From positions 1-62,565 of the forward strand of contig JAUWZX010000001.1 in NCBI GenBank assembly GCA_030615175.1: a stretch of 62,565 bases of DNA, written 5' to 3'. Under the pieces are notes generated by a model. The model saw only the letters and a program-made list of their open reading frames with translations. It was not told the DNA's origin and searched no databases. Shown here piece after piece: positions 847 to 6,976 of this stretch (position 1 is the stretch's first letter; every line of letters starts with the position of its first letter). The position numbers and the translations under genes are program-made. Source of the stretch: Candidatus Parvarchaeota archaeon. GTDB taxonomy: Archaea; Nanobdellota; Nanobdellia; WJKC01.

Positions 847-1152
847 TTATTTTAGGAATTCTAGTTTCTTAATCCTCTTGCCCTTGGCCTGCACGTTCTG
901 CTTACCGCACTGCTTGCACTTGTACCTGAGGTCTAATTTCCTGTTTGACTTAGCATTCCTTTTCCTGTCCTTAGGCGGTTTCTTACTGTAGCGCCCCCTA
1001 TCACCATGCCCTTTAGCAACTTTATCCTTTCTTAAGCGCTGACCTGCCTTCATTGCACCTCTCTTGCCTCCCCTGCCAGCCTGGATTACTTCCTGCTCAG
1101 TCTGCACCCTGCACTTAGGGCAATAACGTTTAATGACTTTAGGCATCTTCAT
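847..1152 (-). CDS. rpl44e: 50S ribosomal protein L44e
   Basis: This is the archaeal/eukaryotic L44e (eL42) family: a small basic large-subunit protein with a zinc ribbon, located near the E site. The sequence has the N-terminal CPKC pair (YCPKCRVQTEQ), the Lys/Arg/Gly-rich middle and the C-terminal CKQCGK pair. Length is 101 residues from the ATG at 1152, or 99 from the second Met (MPKVIKRYCPKC), close to the usual 92-95. GGTGAT lies 7 nt upstream of the ATG at 1152 and could act as a ribosome binding site. The first 12 codons are duplicated 90 bases upstream (see the leader ORF and repeat entries), which is unusual for a ribosomal protein gene. Confidence 0.95.
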   Translation of the reverse strand: MKMPKVIKRYCPKCRVQTEQEVIQAGRGGKRGAMKAGQRLRKDKVAKGHGDRGRYSKKPPKDRKRNAKSNRKLDLRYKCKQCGKQNVQAKGKRIKKLEFLK

Positions 1153-1243
1153 AAATTAATCACCATTATCTCTTTCCGTCAACGATTTCTCTTCAGAGAA
1201 AGGGTTGGGGCAGTAACGTTTAATGACTTTAGGCATCTTCATA
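1118..1243 (-). repeat. rpl44e: Two 36-bp direct copies of the rpl44e 5' end, 90 bp apart
   Basis: Bases 1118-1153 (start codon and first 12 codons of rpl44e) recur at 1208-1243. The copies differ at one position (A at 1123, G at 1213), which is synonymous in the Tyr-Cys-Pro codons. The downstream copy continues as the intact gene; the upstream copy diverges after the 12th codon. This looks like a partial tandem duplication of the gene start. Confidence 0.9.
1156..1242 (-). CDS. Leader peptide from a partial rpl44e duplication
   Basis: The upstream copy of the rpl44e start opens a 28-codon reading frame beginning MKMPKVIKRYCP and then diverging to NPFSEEKSLTERDNGD before a TAA at 1156-1158. 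The stop is only 3 bases before the ATG of intact rpl44e, and the last two sense codons (GGT GAT) form the GGTGAT Shine-Dalgarno-like site of the downstream gene. A TATA-like CTTTTAAAG at 1267-1275 lies about 29 nt before this leader ATG, so a leaderless transcript would begin at the leader, not at rpl44e. It may be a translated leader that couples to rpl44e, or simply debris of a duplication. Confidence 0.55.
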   Translation of the reverse strand: MKMPKVIKRYCPNPFSEEKSLTERDNGD

Positions 1244-1266
1244 GAGAACAAGGAACTAATAAAAGA

Positions 1267-1275
1267 CTTTTAAAG
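1267..1275 (-). promoter_or_regulatory. TATA-like box for the rpl44e transcript
   Basis: Read on the minus strand, CTTTAAAAG is centred about 29 nt upstream of the ATG at 1242, the normal archaeal TATA-to-start distance for a leaderless mRNA. I see no comparable box at the right distance from the intact rpl44e start at 1152. The promoter therefore seems positioned for the duplicated leader copy. Confidence 0.5.
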
Positions 1276-1276
1276 T

Positions 1277-2338
1277 TTACCCTTCAACTCCTAAGAATTC
1301 AAGCATTAAATAATAAGTATAGTCAGAGCAGTTATTGTAAAGGAATCTGATTAATGAAGTGTTAACTATTGCATAAGACTTGCTTACCGAGTCATTGCAG
1401 TAAATTATCTTTCCATTATCCATCATTTTTATTACAGGACTCGTGTTCTCGCAGTCAAACCATTCACTTCTAATGGTTGGGAGGTAATTAATGGTTTTAA
1501 CGCTTAACAGGCTTGAATTAGATATAAAACTCTCATTCGTGTAATGGTCGCATGTCTTTAAGAAAGCGTCTGTTATGTTTTCTTCATAAAAGTCAAGTCC
1601 AGCCATTGACACTGCCTCGCTGCCGTAATAATAATCGCATAAATTATAGCCATTACTGAATAGTAATACTGGGAAATCCTTAACTGGTTCTGAAGCATTA
1701 GTTATGATGAAAATATTAACTTCCCCTTCACTTGAAGCTTCTGATATTAATTCATTTAATGCATCAGTTAAGTCATCAATTAATGACATCCTTTGTTCAA
1801 TGCTTAAGTAATCATAATTATTGTTTAAGCATTCTGCAAAATCACTTAATATTCTTTCAATTAAAGTAAGCCATTCCTGTTCAGTATAATTAGAATCCTG
1901 AGTAATGGAGATTATTGATGAGTTACACATTAAAAGTGACTCGCTTAACACTTCATCAATAACTTCACCTGACAGTGATTCATTTAATGCAAAGTCTAAC
2001 TCAGTAATTAATGACATCACTTGCTCATCGCTTAAGTCATAATTCCTGTCCAAGCAGTCTTCAGTATAACTTAGCATAAAACTAATTAAGTCATCAACTT
2101 CCTCTTCAGTGTAATTAAAGCCTTCAGGTATGAAGAATAATGATGAATTGCACTTTGAAGGCAGTCCTTTTATTGAATCATCAAAAGATTCAATTATTGA
2201 TTCTTCGGAAATATCTAGGTAAGTCAGTTCTGGCGTCGTGCTTGTTTCTAATAGGAGCATGACATATGCCATCACTAACACTACTGATACAATTATTAGA
2301 CTCACTGATGCCACTTTTAATACGTTCACTGTCTTCAT
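1277..2338 (-). CDS. Membrane-anchored extracellular protein with two internal repeats
   Basis: This 353-residue protein has a single N-terminal hydrophobic helix (about residues 9-30) and a long, acidic, Asn/Ser-rich exterior with many N-x-S/T sequons. Residues 63-127 and 138-202 are an internal duplication with a 75-residue period: each begins CNSS, then NYTE, a conserved Cys about 32 residues on (C95 and C170), then MSLI and a helix ending ALNE. The C-terminal third has further cysteines (CDYYYGSEA, CDHYTNES, CENTSP, NNCSDY). It is the last gene of a three-gene operon (6976 to 1277) of secreted proteins. I do not recognise the fold; a surface-structure or adhesion role is plausible only by context. 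Confidence 0.7.
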   Translation of the reverse strand: MKTVNVLKVASVSLIIVSVVLVMAYVMLLLETSTTPELTYLDISEESIIESFDDSIKGLPSKCNSSLFFIPEGFNYTEEEVDDLISFMLSYTEDCLDRNYDLSDEQVMSLITELDFALNESLSGEVIDEVLSESLLMCNSSIISITQDSNYTEQEWLTLIERILSDFAECLNNNYDYLSIEQRMSLIDDLTDALNELISEASSEGEVNIFIITNASEPVKDFPVLLFSNGYNLCDYYYGSEAVSMAGLDFYEENITDAFLKTCDHYTNESFISNSSLLSVKTINYLPTIRSEWFDCENTSPVIKMMDNGKIIYCNDSVSKSYAIVNTSLIRFLYNNCSDYTYYLMLEFLGVEG

Positions 2339-4044
2339 GGGTAGTCACTCCACTGCAGTAAAGCGTAATCATTACTCCTGTCCTTACTCCCTGAAATCCA
2401 TGTATGCTTTACAGTAGTGCGGCTGTGGCATGTCCAAGACCAGACGTCTGTGCAGTAAACCCAGTTATGACATTTTTTATAATAATAACAAGTAGAAAAG
2501 ACTTTTTCACATCCATTTATTACTACTGCAAGATCGCAATCCCACACCCAGCACGATTGAGTCTTTTGCTGGCATCCATACGTGCTTCCCTTCAAGCCCT
2601 TGCATACTTTATCAACAACTTTTGTATCAGTATAGTAAACGTTTACGCATCCTCCAGGAGTTGGAACTCCTGCCTCTGGCTTTGCATCAAATGAAGTAAT
2701 GCCTTCGCGCCCCATGCAGTCACTATCAGTCTTGCATGCTGTCCATTCCCATCCAGCGCACTCGTTTTGGCTTCCTATAAAGCAGTAAGGCGCTTTCCAG
2801 AAATTCAAAAGCCAGTCCTCAGGGCAGTCACTGTTACTACAGCACTCAGTGCAACTGGTACTGCATTCACTAAGCAGGTTGCAAGAGCCGGCAGGAAGGG
2901 TAGCTGTCTGAAGAGTAGCGCACCAACAATACTCAAATGACCCATAAGGAGGTATTGGTATGGTTTCGCAATATACCAGATTAGGGTCGCCTGGAAAACA
3001 TATTTCGTATGGAGCTCCTAATATTGTGCCTGTTTTTTCCACGTCAGTGCATTCATAGTGTTCCCAATTCTTGCCAACACAAGTAGGAGAGTGAGAGTAT
3101 TTAGTCTCGCAGTCAGAGGCAGCAATGCATTCAATACCTTCATGCCATACGCCATCCTTGCAAATGCCTGTTGGAGCAGTAGGAGGTCCTATTGAGAATA
3201 AATCAGGTGAACCATCAATTGTTCCTAAGTCACAGCAGTTATTCTCCCCTCCCTCACCAACCCATGTCCCGCCTGCAGTCTCGCAAGCGCACTGGGAGTC
3301 ATCCTCGTCAGTGTATACCTGGTCATTACAACAGATGTGCTCTAAGTCATGCCATGCTTCGCCAGCATCGTCGCCGCAGCACGCGTCAATACTGCTAACC
3401 CATGTACTGTCATAATATTCCTCCATCTCGCAGCAGTCAATATCATTATCAGCGTAATCAGTGAATAATGAATAGTCAACATCAAACCCTTCCCAATCCT
3501 CATAACAGAAGTCATCAGCAAAACCTTTAGAAAAAGGACCTAAAGGCGCGGCATCATAATCAAAACAGTAACCTCCACACGTGGGTCTATCACAACCCTG
3601 GTCCACCCAAGGAGTGTACGAACAAGTGCATGAAGAAGTGCATGCAATTGCAGTCCTTGTATACAAGTTTTCTGAAGTATATCCAAGGTCCTTACCGCAC
3701 GCACTCGTGTAAGTGCAGTCACCAACAGCATCACAAGCAGCACCACAAGACTGGGAGCACGTCGTAGTGCAACCGCTGCCAGAACAAGTGTAAGAACCGC
3801 AGTCCGCTAACTTGCAATAAGCATACCAAAACACTTCTTCATCGCCCAGGAACGCTTTTGTTCTTTTACAAACACCACTATATCTGTAACATGCATTACT
3901 ACAACCAGTACATTGAGTGCAATCCCATCCAGACTTTTGAGTTGTGGAACACTCTGCATCCGGTTCCTTATTACAAGCCCATACTGAAAATCCAGGAGTT
4001 AAACTTAAGAGAATCACTGCGAGCATTAATAATAATTTTTTCAT
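2335..4044 (-). CDS. Very Cys-rich secreted protein
   Basis: I place the start at the ATG at 4044: it is 5 nt after the upstream stop and begins a good signal peptide (MKKLLLMLAVILLSLTPGFS, cleavage near VWA-CNK). The frame is open upstream to a possible start at 4107, but that would overlap the previous gene. The mature protein (about 545 residues) is packed with cysteines in clusters such as CTQCTGC, CTSSCTC, CACCGDD-like (DACCGDDAG), CSTSCTECCSNSDC and CWVWDCD, which points to many disulfides or metal-free knots outside the cell. DACCGDD and NNCCDLG resemble modules in the neighbouring 975-residue protein. Its 3' end overlaps the start of the next gene by 4 nt. Function unknown. Confidence 0.7.
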   Translation of the reverse strand: MKKLLLMLAVILLSLTPGFSVWACNKEPDAECSTTQKSGWDCTQCTGCSNACYRYSGVCKRTKAFLGDEEVFWYAYCKLADCGSYTCSGSGCTTTCSQSCGAACDAVGDCTYTSACGKDLGYTSENLYTRTAIACTSSCTCSYTPWVDQGCDRPTCGGYCFDYDAAPLGPFSKGFADDFCYEDWEGFDVDYSLFTDYADNDIDCCEMEEYYDSTWVSSIDACCGDDAGEAWHDLEHICCNDQVYTDEDDSQCACETAGGTWVGEGGENNCCDLGTIDGSPDLFSIGPPTAPTGICKDGVWHEGIECIAASDCETKYSHSPTCVGKNWEHYECTDVEKTGTILGAPYEICFPGDPNLVYCETIPIPPYGSFEYCWCATLQTATLPAGSCNLLSECSTSCTECCSNSDCPEDWLLNFWKAPYCFIGSQNECAGWEWTACKTDSDCMGREGITSFDAKPEAGVPTPGGCVNVYYTDTKVVDKVCKGLKGSTYGCQQKTQSCWVWDCDLAVVINGCEKVFSTCYYYKKCHNWVYCTDVWSWTCHSRTTVKHTWISGSKDRSNDYALLQWSDYP

Positions 4045-4048
4045 CTTC

Positions 4049-6976
4049 TTAATTACCACCTGTGCAATAATAATCAATCTTTTGGGCTTCATAATTCTTT
4101 GCTTCACTGGCAGGTCTTACGCGGGCAGCTATGTAAATCCCTGTAGAGGGTCCGCAGTCATAAAAAGTGCCTCCATAACAAAACTTGTTTTCACCAATCA
4201 TGAAGTCATCATCATCACTGTCTACGCTGTCATCATTAGTTGAGTTCCCGTCATATGTGGTGTCATCACCGCAGCATAAGCCATTCCCGTCAGGTTCAAA
4301 CCAAGCCGCTCCATAAACATCAACGCAGCATGCTTCACTAACATCGCCGTCAGCGCAGTACTCAATAGTCACCCTCATACAATTATTACTGAAATCAAAA
4401 TCATCACTGTAAGGAGTCCTGACACAAGCAATGAGTCCGTGAGAATGTTTAAGGAATTCCACAAAAGGAGGAGCCACTAAGCCCTCTCCCAGGAGAGCAT
4501 CGTATAATTCCTCTCCAGACAGCAACTCTAAATCACTAATTAATTCAGTGCTGACAACAAAATCACTTAATTCAACAGAAACATATTCTTCAGGGAATTT
4601 ATAAAACGGGGGAGACTCAAGAGCCTCCTGGTTATAATAATACGCATAACCTTCTTCAGGAAAAACTAAAGAGTCATTATTAACATCAAAGAAAACGTCA
4701 ATGATTAATTCATCATTAAAGGCATTGCCATCACTTGTTCTTGAAATCCATAATTCATCAATCGTTAGCGTTTTATCTGAACTATAAATGTAATCATCAT
4801 TAAGTTCGCTCTCATAATTAGATAATAATAATGAGTCAGCCCTTAAATTATTAATGAATGGCCTACAGTCAGTGAATTCACTAATGTCCTCGCAATCACT
4901 GCAAGAACTGTTAAAGTAAGGCGTCTCACCCAAATCTGTTTCATCAACTCCTTTAAAAGTGATTTCAGTAACGTTAATTTTATTAATGTCAACCCACCAC
5001 TTAACTCCAGGGTACTTATCCTCAAGCATGCTTCCAACATTATGAAAACGGCTCTTCAATAATTCAGTAAGCATTGGAATGAATGATGTGCGAACAGCGT
5101 AATCACAGGTAGGAGGAGGAATACCTATACTTGTATAAGTAATATCGGGCTCTCCATCAGGGTCAGGGATTGAATCATCCATATCATTAAAAGAGTATTC
5201 ATAAGAGCCGGAAAGTATCTCATCACTTAACTCAGGAAAGTAAGAGCGATCCCAGCGCTGATCAACGAATAAGCTGAAGAAAGTTCCGTAACAATTAATG
5301 CAGGGAGTGTAAGACAAGTTAAGGCATGGATTCAAAGAGTAAGGCAGTGCATGGCACTTACCGCAATTATAAAGTAATTTACCCCAAGAAGTTACTGGTT
5401 CAATGGCAGGACCAGCAATGTAAGGATTGCTTGGGTCAATGTAATCCGCATAAGTTTCAGGATTGCACTCCTCTATGTATTCATCCTCGCACGTGACGCC
5501 AATGCCTGGCAGCCCCTTAACACCCCACTCTGGAAGAGTTAATGATTCGTACAGCCCGCTGGAATCATTGCCTTCATTAACACTTTTGTAATTGTAAACG
5601 TCATCACTGAAGTACTGGCAAACCTCTTTCAGAATATAAAAACACATTGGCTTTAAAGTAAAGCCTTCACCAAAAACTTCCTCCCAATCAGCATAATCCT
5701 CAATATTAAACCCGTAATAATTATACTTAGAATCATAAGGAGTGTTATTAAGGTACTCCTCGTACTTCATGTTGCTGCTGCCCTCAATCGGGACTTTAAC
5801 CCTAAGTTCAAAAAAAGAATGATAAAGCAATACTTCATTAACAATGCTTTCAATAACTGAATTCTTAACAGCGTCAATAGAAGCAGTCCTGAAGCGGGCG
5901 AAGTCGCTGTCAAAAGCATCAAAAATGTAAGTTGAGCCCTTATAATTAATATCAGCGTAATCACCCTTGAACTTAACAGTAAAGAAAGGAACGTTTAACG
6001 GGAAGAAATTAATGAAAATAGTGTTATTGCCGAAACCCTCAATCTCAGGAGTTACAGGGTTATCTTCAATTAATGTTTTATAATCAACAGGCGCGAAGTT
6101 AATTTTAACGTCATCAGCAGTGTAAGTTCCAAAACTAGCAGGATTGCGTATCGAAGTTAATGCAAAGTCATCAATTGTCTTAAAATTCTGGTCAACGAAC
6201 TCCTCAAACGTATTCTTAATAAAGTAAGGGTCAGGATAACAGGTTTCCTGACTAATAACTCTCTGTAAAATCATTAAAGGAGGATTATCCGAGTGGAAAT
6301 CATTTAAATTAATGCCTGCAGGGTAATCAGTCTTAAAGTCAGGGTCATTGCAGTAAGGAGTGCCATTATCCGTTAAGAGTGCTTCAGGAATTGAGTGAGT
6401 GCATAAGCCGTCTGGAGATGAGTTATCGCTGAGAATGATTAAGTGATTGCCGCCAACTAAGTGGAATGGAGCTGGGTCTGGACTGCCATTCACCGGCTCA
6501 CCGTTAACAAGGAACCAGCCAATATCCGTTTCCTTACCATCACCGATTTGAAGCATGTAATCAGCCTCGCGCACATTGTCAAAGCGGTAAGCAACCCAGT
6601 CATCGCCAGGCACTTCATTAAAACGGTAGCCAATGTAATTATAATACTCTTCAGTATCCTTAGCAGATTTCCAGTAAGGAATGTACTTATCAAGCTGTAA
6701 AGTGCTTAAGTTCATTGAAACACCGCAAGGACTGACGCCGTGAGGCCATAATCCAATACTGCCTAAGTGAATTCCTGCGTAATCAGCGCCAACCTGCCGC
6801 TCCTGTTTCTGAATACTTCTAACTGCTTGAACAAGGTCAGCAACCTTTAAGACTTCCTGCGCCTTTAACACCTGCGCTGAATTATCAACCAAGCGGTCGC
6901 TGACAATGCCTATAAGCGTTAACAACACGAATAAGATGCTGATAAACCATAAAATTGAATACTGACCTCTCCTCAT
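4049..6976 (-). CDS. Large extracellular protein with pilin-like N-terminal anchor
   Basis: A 975-residue protein that begins MRRGQYSILWFISILFVLLT. The basic RRGQ followed at once by a hydrophobic helix resembles archaeal class III (pilin-type) signals such as KRGQA in the pilin at 34810, but the usual Glu at +5 is missing. The exterior is long, acidic and aromatic, with Cys clusters CGKCHALPYSLNPC, TPCINC and, near the C-terminus, ACCVDVYG...LCCGDD, a module shared with the next gene. First gene of a three-gene operon with the Cys-rich 4044 and 2338 genes. It may be a large surface fibre or adhesin; I cannot assign a family. Confidence 0.7.
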   Translation of the reverse strand: MRRGQYSILWFISILFVLLTLIGIVSDRLVDNSAQVLKAQEVLKVADLVQAVRSIQKQERQVGADYAGIHLGSIGLWPHGVSPCGVSMNLSTLQLDKYIPYWKSAKDTEEYYNYIGYRFNEVPGDDWVAYRFDNVREADYMLQIGDGKETDIGWFLVNGEPVNGSPDPAPFHLVGGNHLIILSDNSSPDGLCTHSIPEALLTDNGTPYCNDPDFKTDYPAGINLNDFHSDNPPLMILQRVISQETCYPDPYFIKNTFEEFVDQNFKTIDDFALTSIRNPASFGTYTADDVKINFAPVDYKTLIEDNPVTPEIEGFGNNTIFINFFPLNVPFFTVKFKGDYADINYKGSTYIFDAFDSDFARFRTASIDAVKNSVIESIVNEVLLYHSFFELRVKVPIEGSSNMKYEEYLNNTPYDSKYNYYGFNIEDYADWEEVFGEGFTLKPMCFYILKEVCQYFSDDVYNYKSVNEGNDSSGLYESLTLPEWGVKGLPGIGVTCEDEYIEECNPETYADYIDPSNPYIAGPAIEPVTSWGKLLYNCGKCHALPYSLNPCLNLSYTPCINCYGTFFSLFVDQRWDRSYFPELSDEILSGSYEYSFNDMDDSIPDPDGEPDITYTSIGIPPPTCDYAVRTSFIPMLTELLKSRFHNVGSMLEDKYPGVKWWVDINKINVTEITFKGVDETDLGETPYFNSSCSDCEDISEFTDCRPFINNLRADSLLLSNYESELNDDYIYSSDKTLTIDELWISRTSDGNAFNDELIIDVFFDVNNDSLVFPEEGYAYYYNQEALESPPFYKFPEEYVSVELSDFVVSTELISDLELLSGEELYDALLGEGLVAPPFVEFLKHSHGLIACVRTPYSDDFDFSNNCMRVTIEYCADGDVSEACCVDVYGAAWFEPDGNGLCCGDDTTYDGNSTNDDSVDSDDDDFMIGENKFCYGGTFYDCGPSTGIYIAARVRPASEAKNYEAQKIDYYCTGGN

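Follow-up and report, generated by a model that had tools for sequence, protein, structure and literature searches.

The duplicated rpl44e start of a Parvarchaeota archaeon encloses a member of a probably mobile, intron-related hairpin family

REP elements, MITEs and introners are small, non-coding and hairpin-forming sequences that occur in multiple copies, and introners become introns on insertion. In Thermoproteales, near-identical short introns are found in different tRNA genes and at different positions, implying that they have spread (Fujishima et al., 2010, in the account given by PMC4090602), and in the same review the mechanism of intron transposition between tRNAs is called unknown. 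Introns, archaeal ones included, have also been proposed to insert like mobile elements and to leave direct repeats of 4–30 bp (Rogers and Bendich, 2025; PMC11782384). Larger integrative elements are known at gene ends, such as SSV1, whose integration at tRNA-Arg is marked by a 44-bp duplication of the tRNA 3′ end, and a tRNA-Thr is disrupted in Caldiarchaeum (PMC3293823). Here we analyzed a window of 62,565 nt of Candidatus Parvarchaeota archaeon (contig JAUWZX010000001.1 of GCA_030615175.1), in which the start of a ribosomal protein gene is duplicated, and we conclude that the locus belongs to a probably mobile family of intron-related hairpins, in which insertion at a gene end leaves two copies of that end that both remain coding-like.

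The gene, rpl44e (847–1152, minus strand), is an intact ORF of 101 aa whose product (P0001) was assigned to ribosomal protein L44e (PF00935, E = 2e-8). Upstream of it on the same strand, two large, partly Cys-rich ORFs that look surface-protein-like by eye occupy 2335–6976. The first codons of rpl44e together with the base before its ATG (1118–1153, minus strand; the gene-proximal copy, T_right) recur as a direct repeat at 1208–1243 (minus strand; the upstream copy, T_left), with TAT/TAC as the single and silent difference; when extended to 1115–1153 and 1205–1243, the repeat covers 39 nt with 37/39 (95%) identity at a spacing of exactly 90. Such a 35/36 match 90 bp apart at the start of a gene is not chance. 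The first-pass annotation, which was made from the sequence alone, had described this repeat as the first 36 bases of rpl44e with one silent difference; the repeat is real, but one of its bases (1153) lies upstream of the ATG at 1150–1152.

The upstream copy opens a leader ORF of 28 codons, MKMPKVIKRYCPNPFSEEKSLTERDNGD (1156–1242, minus strand), which runs to a TAA at 1156–1158, so that a TTT alone separates its stop from the rpl44e ATG. Its last two codons, GGT GAT (1159–1164, minus strand), supply the SD-like site of rpl44e, and a TATA-like box, TTTAAAA (1268–1274, minus strand), is placed for the upstream ATG, its hexamers starting 31–32 nt before it. These three features bear out what had been proposed at first reading. 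In the ORF survey of the window, a TATA hexamer was found 28–33 nt before the ATG in many of the 52 ORFs examined, and an SD-like site in just four of them. Read along the minus strand, the order is thus the TATA-like box, ATGAAGATGCCTAAAGTCATTAAACGTTACTGCCC (to 1208), CAACCCTTTCTCTGAAGAGAAATCGTTGACGG-AAAGA (1207–1171), GATAATGGTGATTAATT (1154–1170), and the rpl44e start from 1152. The 17 nt of GATAATGGTGATTAATT, which lie between the hairpin core described below and T_right and contain the GGTGAT, are unexplained sequence. No unusual stability was found for the leader RNA of rpl44e (z = −0.01).

When the locus was compared by BLAST with its own genome, unexpected matches fell on the spacer between the two copies. 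This spacer holds a hairpin of about 37 nt (1171–1207, minus strand), CAACCC-TTTCTC-TGAA-GAGAAA-TCGTTG-ACGG-AAAGA, hereafter E, whose left edge is exactly where T_left ends and which belongs to a family with 14 copies in the genome. A pattern search for E returned 13 matches in this genome and none with the reversed control; one match (L026) was rejected as a chance match within a coding gene, and the 14 copies are made up of the 12 genuine matches, the rpl44e copy and a variant at a tRNA 5′ end. The consensus core is x-AACCC-stem-loop-GCGTT-x′-ACGGAAAA, about 27–40 nt of structured sequence with a variable loop and a variable outer pair, followed by A-rich DNA. Although x and x′ were left free in the search pattern, they pair in 36/36 genuine matches (CG 16, GC 12, AT 5, TA 3). 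In the alignment of loop-trimmed cores, 97.5% of cells are paired and 41 double changes were counted versus 12.9 in shuffles; some of these cores were collected with a script demanding three outer pairs, and the unbiased pairing figure is therefore the 36/36. The base pairs of E covary strongly.

A covariance model, R1, built from loop-trimmed cores since loop length varies (loop lengths are hence not represented in it), matched the rpl44e locus at 1171–1208 with E = 1.2e-7 per genome, where one stem pair is missing owing to a T in place of the consensus G. At E ≤ 0.01, R1 found matches in 35 of 188 Aenigmatarchaeota-class genomes, with a patchy distribution and up to 37 matches per genome, and at E ≤ 1e-4 in 27 of 237 genomes sampled across the phylum, all belonging to the same class. 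The host itself falls among Candidatus Aenigmatarchaeota, judging from named loci of related L44e genes. Several variations on the core were noticed in passing. One genome (G089) carries head-to-tail arrays of up to four E copies with a 37-bp period (L164, at G089:C28:80400-81300, L167 and L168), two of which lie at contig ends, and a second hairpin repeat, AACTTTTAGAAAAAGTTTCATCAAAA, adjoins E copies in the same genome (L151, L154, L166). At L040, L049, L050 and others, the A/G run after ACGG mirrors the pyrimidine stem arm (for example TTTTCTCTC ... AAAAGAGAG), the arrangement expected of a purine third strand, and a second core variant reads CC-stem-GC...CCAAAA.

Eight of the own-genome copies interrupt tRNA genes: six are placed in the T-loop, and the remaining two, which are identical to each other, occupy the anticodon loop of tRNA-Pro. 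In all eight, deleting E together with 3–29 following nt gave a tRNA recognized by ARAGORN (tRNA-Leu three times, tRNA-Ser, tRNA-Pro twice, and two without a resolved anticodon), from which we infer that E must be removed from these transcripts at the RNA level. In relatives, a single tRNA can contain two or more copies, placed in the D-loop, at the anticodon and in the T-loop, and in one genome (L255 and L246, G009:C22) copies lie within a 23S rRNA gene, two of them close together, and overlap an archaeal RNase P RNA match that scores below the Rfam gathering score; removal is probably also needed in these rRNA and RNase P RNA genes. A strict fit to the canonical bulge-helix-bulge (BHB; 3-nt bulges, 4-bp central helix) failed in the six tRNA copies considered, the best helix reaching 1–3 of the 4 pairs, so that either a relaxed BHB motif is used or removal works differently. 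A 3′ partner of the E start, forming a helix of at least 5 bp, was found in 12 of 22 tRNA copies compared with 3.2 expected, and was absent at rpl44e (longest helix 3 bp) and at most gene-end copies; the tRNA classifier used here misses multi-intron tRNAs, and the non-tRNA class is therefore mixed. At rpl44e, it is the 3′ segment between the core and T_right that lacks this complement of the CAACCC start, which many tRNA-intron copies have.

At the non-intron sites, E has a partial copy of a gene end directly against its left edge and the full-length gene to its right. Besides the rpl44e 5′ end and one intergenic site, the remaining copies in this genome lie at the 3′ end of 5S rRNA, where the direct repeat is 39/39 identical, at the 3′ ends of a metallophosphoesterase-like gene and an FtsX-like permease gene, and at the 5′ end of a tRNA gene (called by Rfam; tRNA-Glu by eye). 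By anchored alignment, 16 of 84 E copies scored above the 99% level of a null composed of left–right pairs from different loci, which is conservative as the set holds the same site twice; among them are rpl44e (score 68), 5S rRNA, the permease gene and a gene of G089 (44/44). The duplications vary in length from 19 to 46 nt, and the copy starts are separated by about 50–130 bp. Further gene-end cases were read by eye with an ORF check in relatives, namely thrS (PF08915), pop5 (identified by eye, its 50-residue piece being without a Pfam match) and several gene 3′ ends. The 3′ (right) side of E bore the intact gene in 17 of 18 hand-read cases; among these, L053 and L263 may not count as two separate cases, since their gene site seems to be shared. 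The two come from genomes of different families (G046 and G038, respectively), and shared ancestry, transfer or a hot spot could account for E at apparently the same gene end. Gene 3′ ends and RNA genes account for most of the gene-end copies, and E runs antisense to the gene wherever it occupies a 3′ end.

Both gene-end copies were coding while they diverged. In 12 protein-gene pairs, differences between the copies numbered 10, 4 and 42 at codon positions 1, 2 and 3, respectively (42/56 at the third), with no indels, and 37 synonymous versus 9 nonsynonymous codons differed. This third-position bias has p = 2e-10 against an expectation of one third, and 1e-5 against an assumed mixture in which the gene-attached copy alone was constrained. 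Among the pairs that reach a stop, both copies retain one in most, often as different codons. Since the differences fall mainly at third positions, neither copy behaves as dead debris, and the suggestion that the extra rpl44e copy could be just debris is too simple. A simple inert target duplication would not be expected to give such a bias, and exchange with another genome or continued selection must therefore be added to it; the bias points either to gene ends being exchanged among related genomes when E inserts, or to frequent reversion, by excision, to the single-copy state.

Based on these findings, we consider it likely that rpl44e was once leaderless and that a small mobile hairpin, E, entered at its 5′ end, with 36 nt of the gene start being duplicated on the left of the hairpin. 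E would travel in the form of DNA or RNA, duplicating its target in the process, and its insertion at the presumed ancestral leaderless start would have shifted the intact rpl44e 90 nt downstream, whereupon the orphaned upstream copy would now hold the original promoter and ATG position. The upstream copy is most likely the ancestral leaderless start, because its ATG has the usual TATA spacing and because a TATA-like box was seen by eye upstream of the unduplicated rpl44e in the only genome of the same family, G001, whose L44e is 44% identical. Translation of the displaced gene would probably start from the GGTGAT, whether or not it is coupled to the 28-codon ORF. At protein genes in general, E would be tolerated beside gene ends because one end copy remains joined to the gene body.

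We more tentatively propose, with somewhat less than even confidence, that the Aenigmatarchaeota have in E a minimal mobile element of a new class, with a structured core of about 30–40 nt, which would act as an intron in stable RNA genes and as a polar, target-duplicating insertion at protein-gene ends where both end copies are coding-competent, and which at rpl44e, thrS and pop5 would in addition create a coupled leader ORF. At thrS and pop5, the other two sense-strand protein-gene cases, the upstream ORFs likewise stop close to the real start, the TGA of the thrS ORF overlapping the GTG start. The recurrence of this layout makes coupling at rpl44e worth testing, where the leader ORF may be translated and coupled to the gene. 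At pop5 (L252, G038:C14), the GTG of the upstream copy is GTA in the gene-attached one, and an in-frame ATG, GTG or TTG start is not visible; either a rare start codon or RNA splicing would apply there.

Candidate mobilizing enzymes were compared with the E content of 188 genomes, and no association was found for Cas1, RVT_1 or Y1_Tnp, although absences from draft genomes, some of them well below 90% complete, do not amount to proof. None of the three was found in nine E-rich genomes (G000, G009, G029, G037, G038, G053, G075, G089 and G143). Cas1-type integration, an idea suggested by the long duplications, was rejected with Cas1 in 18/188 genomes, none of them E-rich; a reverse transcriptase was not found in nine of the ten richest genomes examined, the other one, G025, having RVT_1; and an IS200-type Y1 transposase of the REP-like kind was not found in the same nine. 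G025, with 11 E copies, has both RVT_1 and Y1_Tnp. With respect to DNA transposons and MITEs, the family is multicopy, dispersed and related in sequence and is accompanied by target site duplications, whose lengths of 19–46 nt are long and variable for a transposase. E was also seen on two viral-class contigs, L228 and L229 (IMGVR_UViG_3300027726_000013 and IMGVR_UViG_3300027792_000041), with portal-like and terminase-like genes and a LAGLIDADG-like ORF by eye, and on L230 (IMGVR_UViG_3300009285_002298), which has a duplicated tRNA 3′ end. Viruses or plasmids may thus carry E.

These contigs bear on a somewhat unlikely alternative, in which a larger integrative element, a virus or plasmid with a site-specific recombinase, used E as its attachment site or left it as a scar; this element would have brought a functional replacement gene end, in the manner of tRNA-targeting integrases, and its bulk would have been lost or act in trans. 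The coding conservation of both end copies, with stop codons that often differ as if the element had brought its own gene end, the 17:1 polarity, the IMG/VR copy beside a duplicated tRNA 3′ end and the presence of E on two related tailed-virus-like IMG/VR contigs all agree with it, but only E and short flanks lie between the copies at about 18 sites, the same core occupies mid-gene positions in tRNAs, and no integrase came to be linked with E, the enzyme searches having covered Cas1, RVT_1 and Y1_Tnp. The regulatory leader favored by the first-pass annotation, in which the 28-codon ORF is translated from a leaderless mRNA, stops 3 nt short and allows reinitiation at rpl44e while free L44e may bind the copy and thereby adjust its own synthesis, is less likely still. 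Its anatomy was correctly described, coupling by termination and reinitiation is physically plausible, and the TATA placement, an ORF open through E to the real start, the SD in its last codons, the purely silent changes between the two copies and the similar layouts of thrS and pop5 argue for it. Nevertheless, an origin in rpl44e-specific feedback is unsupported, as the hairpin leaves like footprints at unrelated genes; a leader could not form at most gene-end copies, which are located at the 3′ ends of genes or in RNA genes, and there is no excess RNA structure. Conservation in related genomes, which had also been raised, does not favor it either, the start duplication being absent at all other rpl44e loci inspected in the class, including that of G001. 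A regulatory leader peptide at rpl44e is possible as a secondary use, but a leader is not needed to explain the origin of the duplication. Overall, the earlier reading is partly supported, with its anatomy partly right and the cause missed.

That E and the gene-proximal copy (90 nt) are instead spliced out of the rpl44e mRNA, joining the upstream 12 codons to the gene body and restoring the ancestral leaderless mRNA, seems quite improbable. Family members in tRNAs must be removed, the promoter position favors the upstream ATG, and the GTA of the gene-proximal pop5 copy would agree with splicing; against this, the intron-type 3′ partner seen in tRNAs is absent at rpl44e and most gene-end copies, rpl44e has kept an ATG and an SD of its own, 3′-end copies of E run antisense to their genes, not even the tRNA copies fit a strict BHB, and the rpl44e RNA overall is without excess stability. 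A chance tandem duplication or a mis-assembly at a contig end has hardly any probability. The locus does lie about 1 kb from the end of its contig (C5), but the copies are separated by a family element seen at many unrelated sites in many assemblies; mis-assembly is unlikely because several other genomes repeat this architecture at other genes, and tandem duplication alone was rejected because the DNA between the copies is that element. Insertion of E at the rpl44e start stays our preferred explanation.

If the new-class reading is true, E would be an archaeal counterpart of introners and a missing link for the transposition of archaeal introns. One family was found here both as apparent introns of RNA genes and as gene-end insertions that leave footprints in the form of direct repeats, polarity and boundaries. 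The spread of short archaeal introns thereby becomes testable in sequence data, through empty sites, excision products, circular RNAs and candidate enzymes. The locus also indicates that a ribosomal-protein gene pushed off its leaderless start can still keep an intact coding sequence, and it matters for the hairpin family rather than for the leader peptide. No description of E was found in the openly accessible journal papers that were searched.

Compared with the described systems, E resembles the tRNA introns of Thermoproteales in that near-identical copies within a genome occupy various tRNA genes and various sites in them, but differs from them in also occurring at protein-gene ends with duplicated ends, in its covarying outer pairs, in the lack of a canonical BHB fit and in its host group, the Aenigmatarchaeota. 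The direct repeats at E reach 39–46 nt, flank a defined family at non-intron sites and keep coding sense, in contrast to the repeats proposed for inserting introns (PMC11782384). As in SSV1-type integration, a gene-end duplication, a reconstituted gene and tRNA targets were found at E sites, whereas the insert is only tens of bp without an integrase (copy starts about 50–130 bp apart) and the targets include protein-gene 5′ and 3′ ends as well as 5S rRNA. Finally, E is small, non-coding, hairpin-forming and multicopy like REP elements, MITEs and introners, while it is set apart from them by target duplications that greatly exceed in length the ones made by common transposases, and no Y1 transposase was found in most E-rich genomes.
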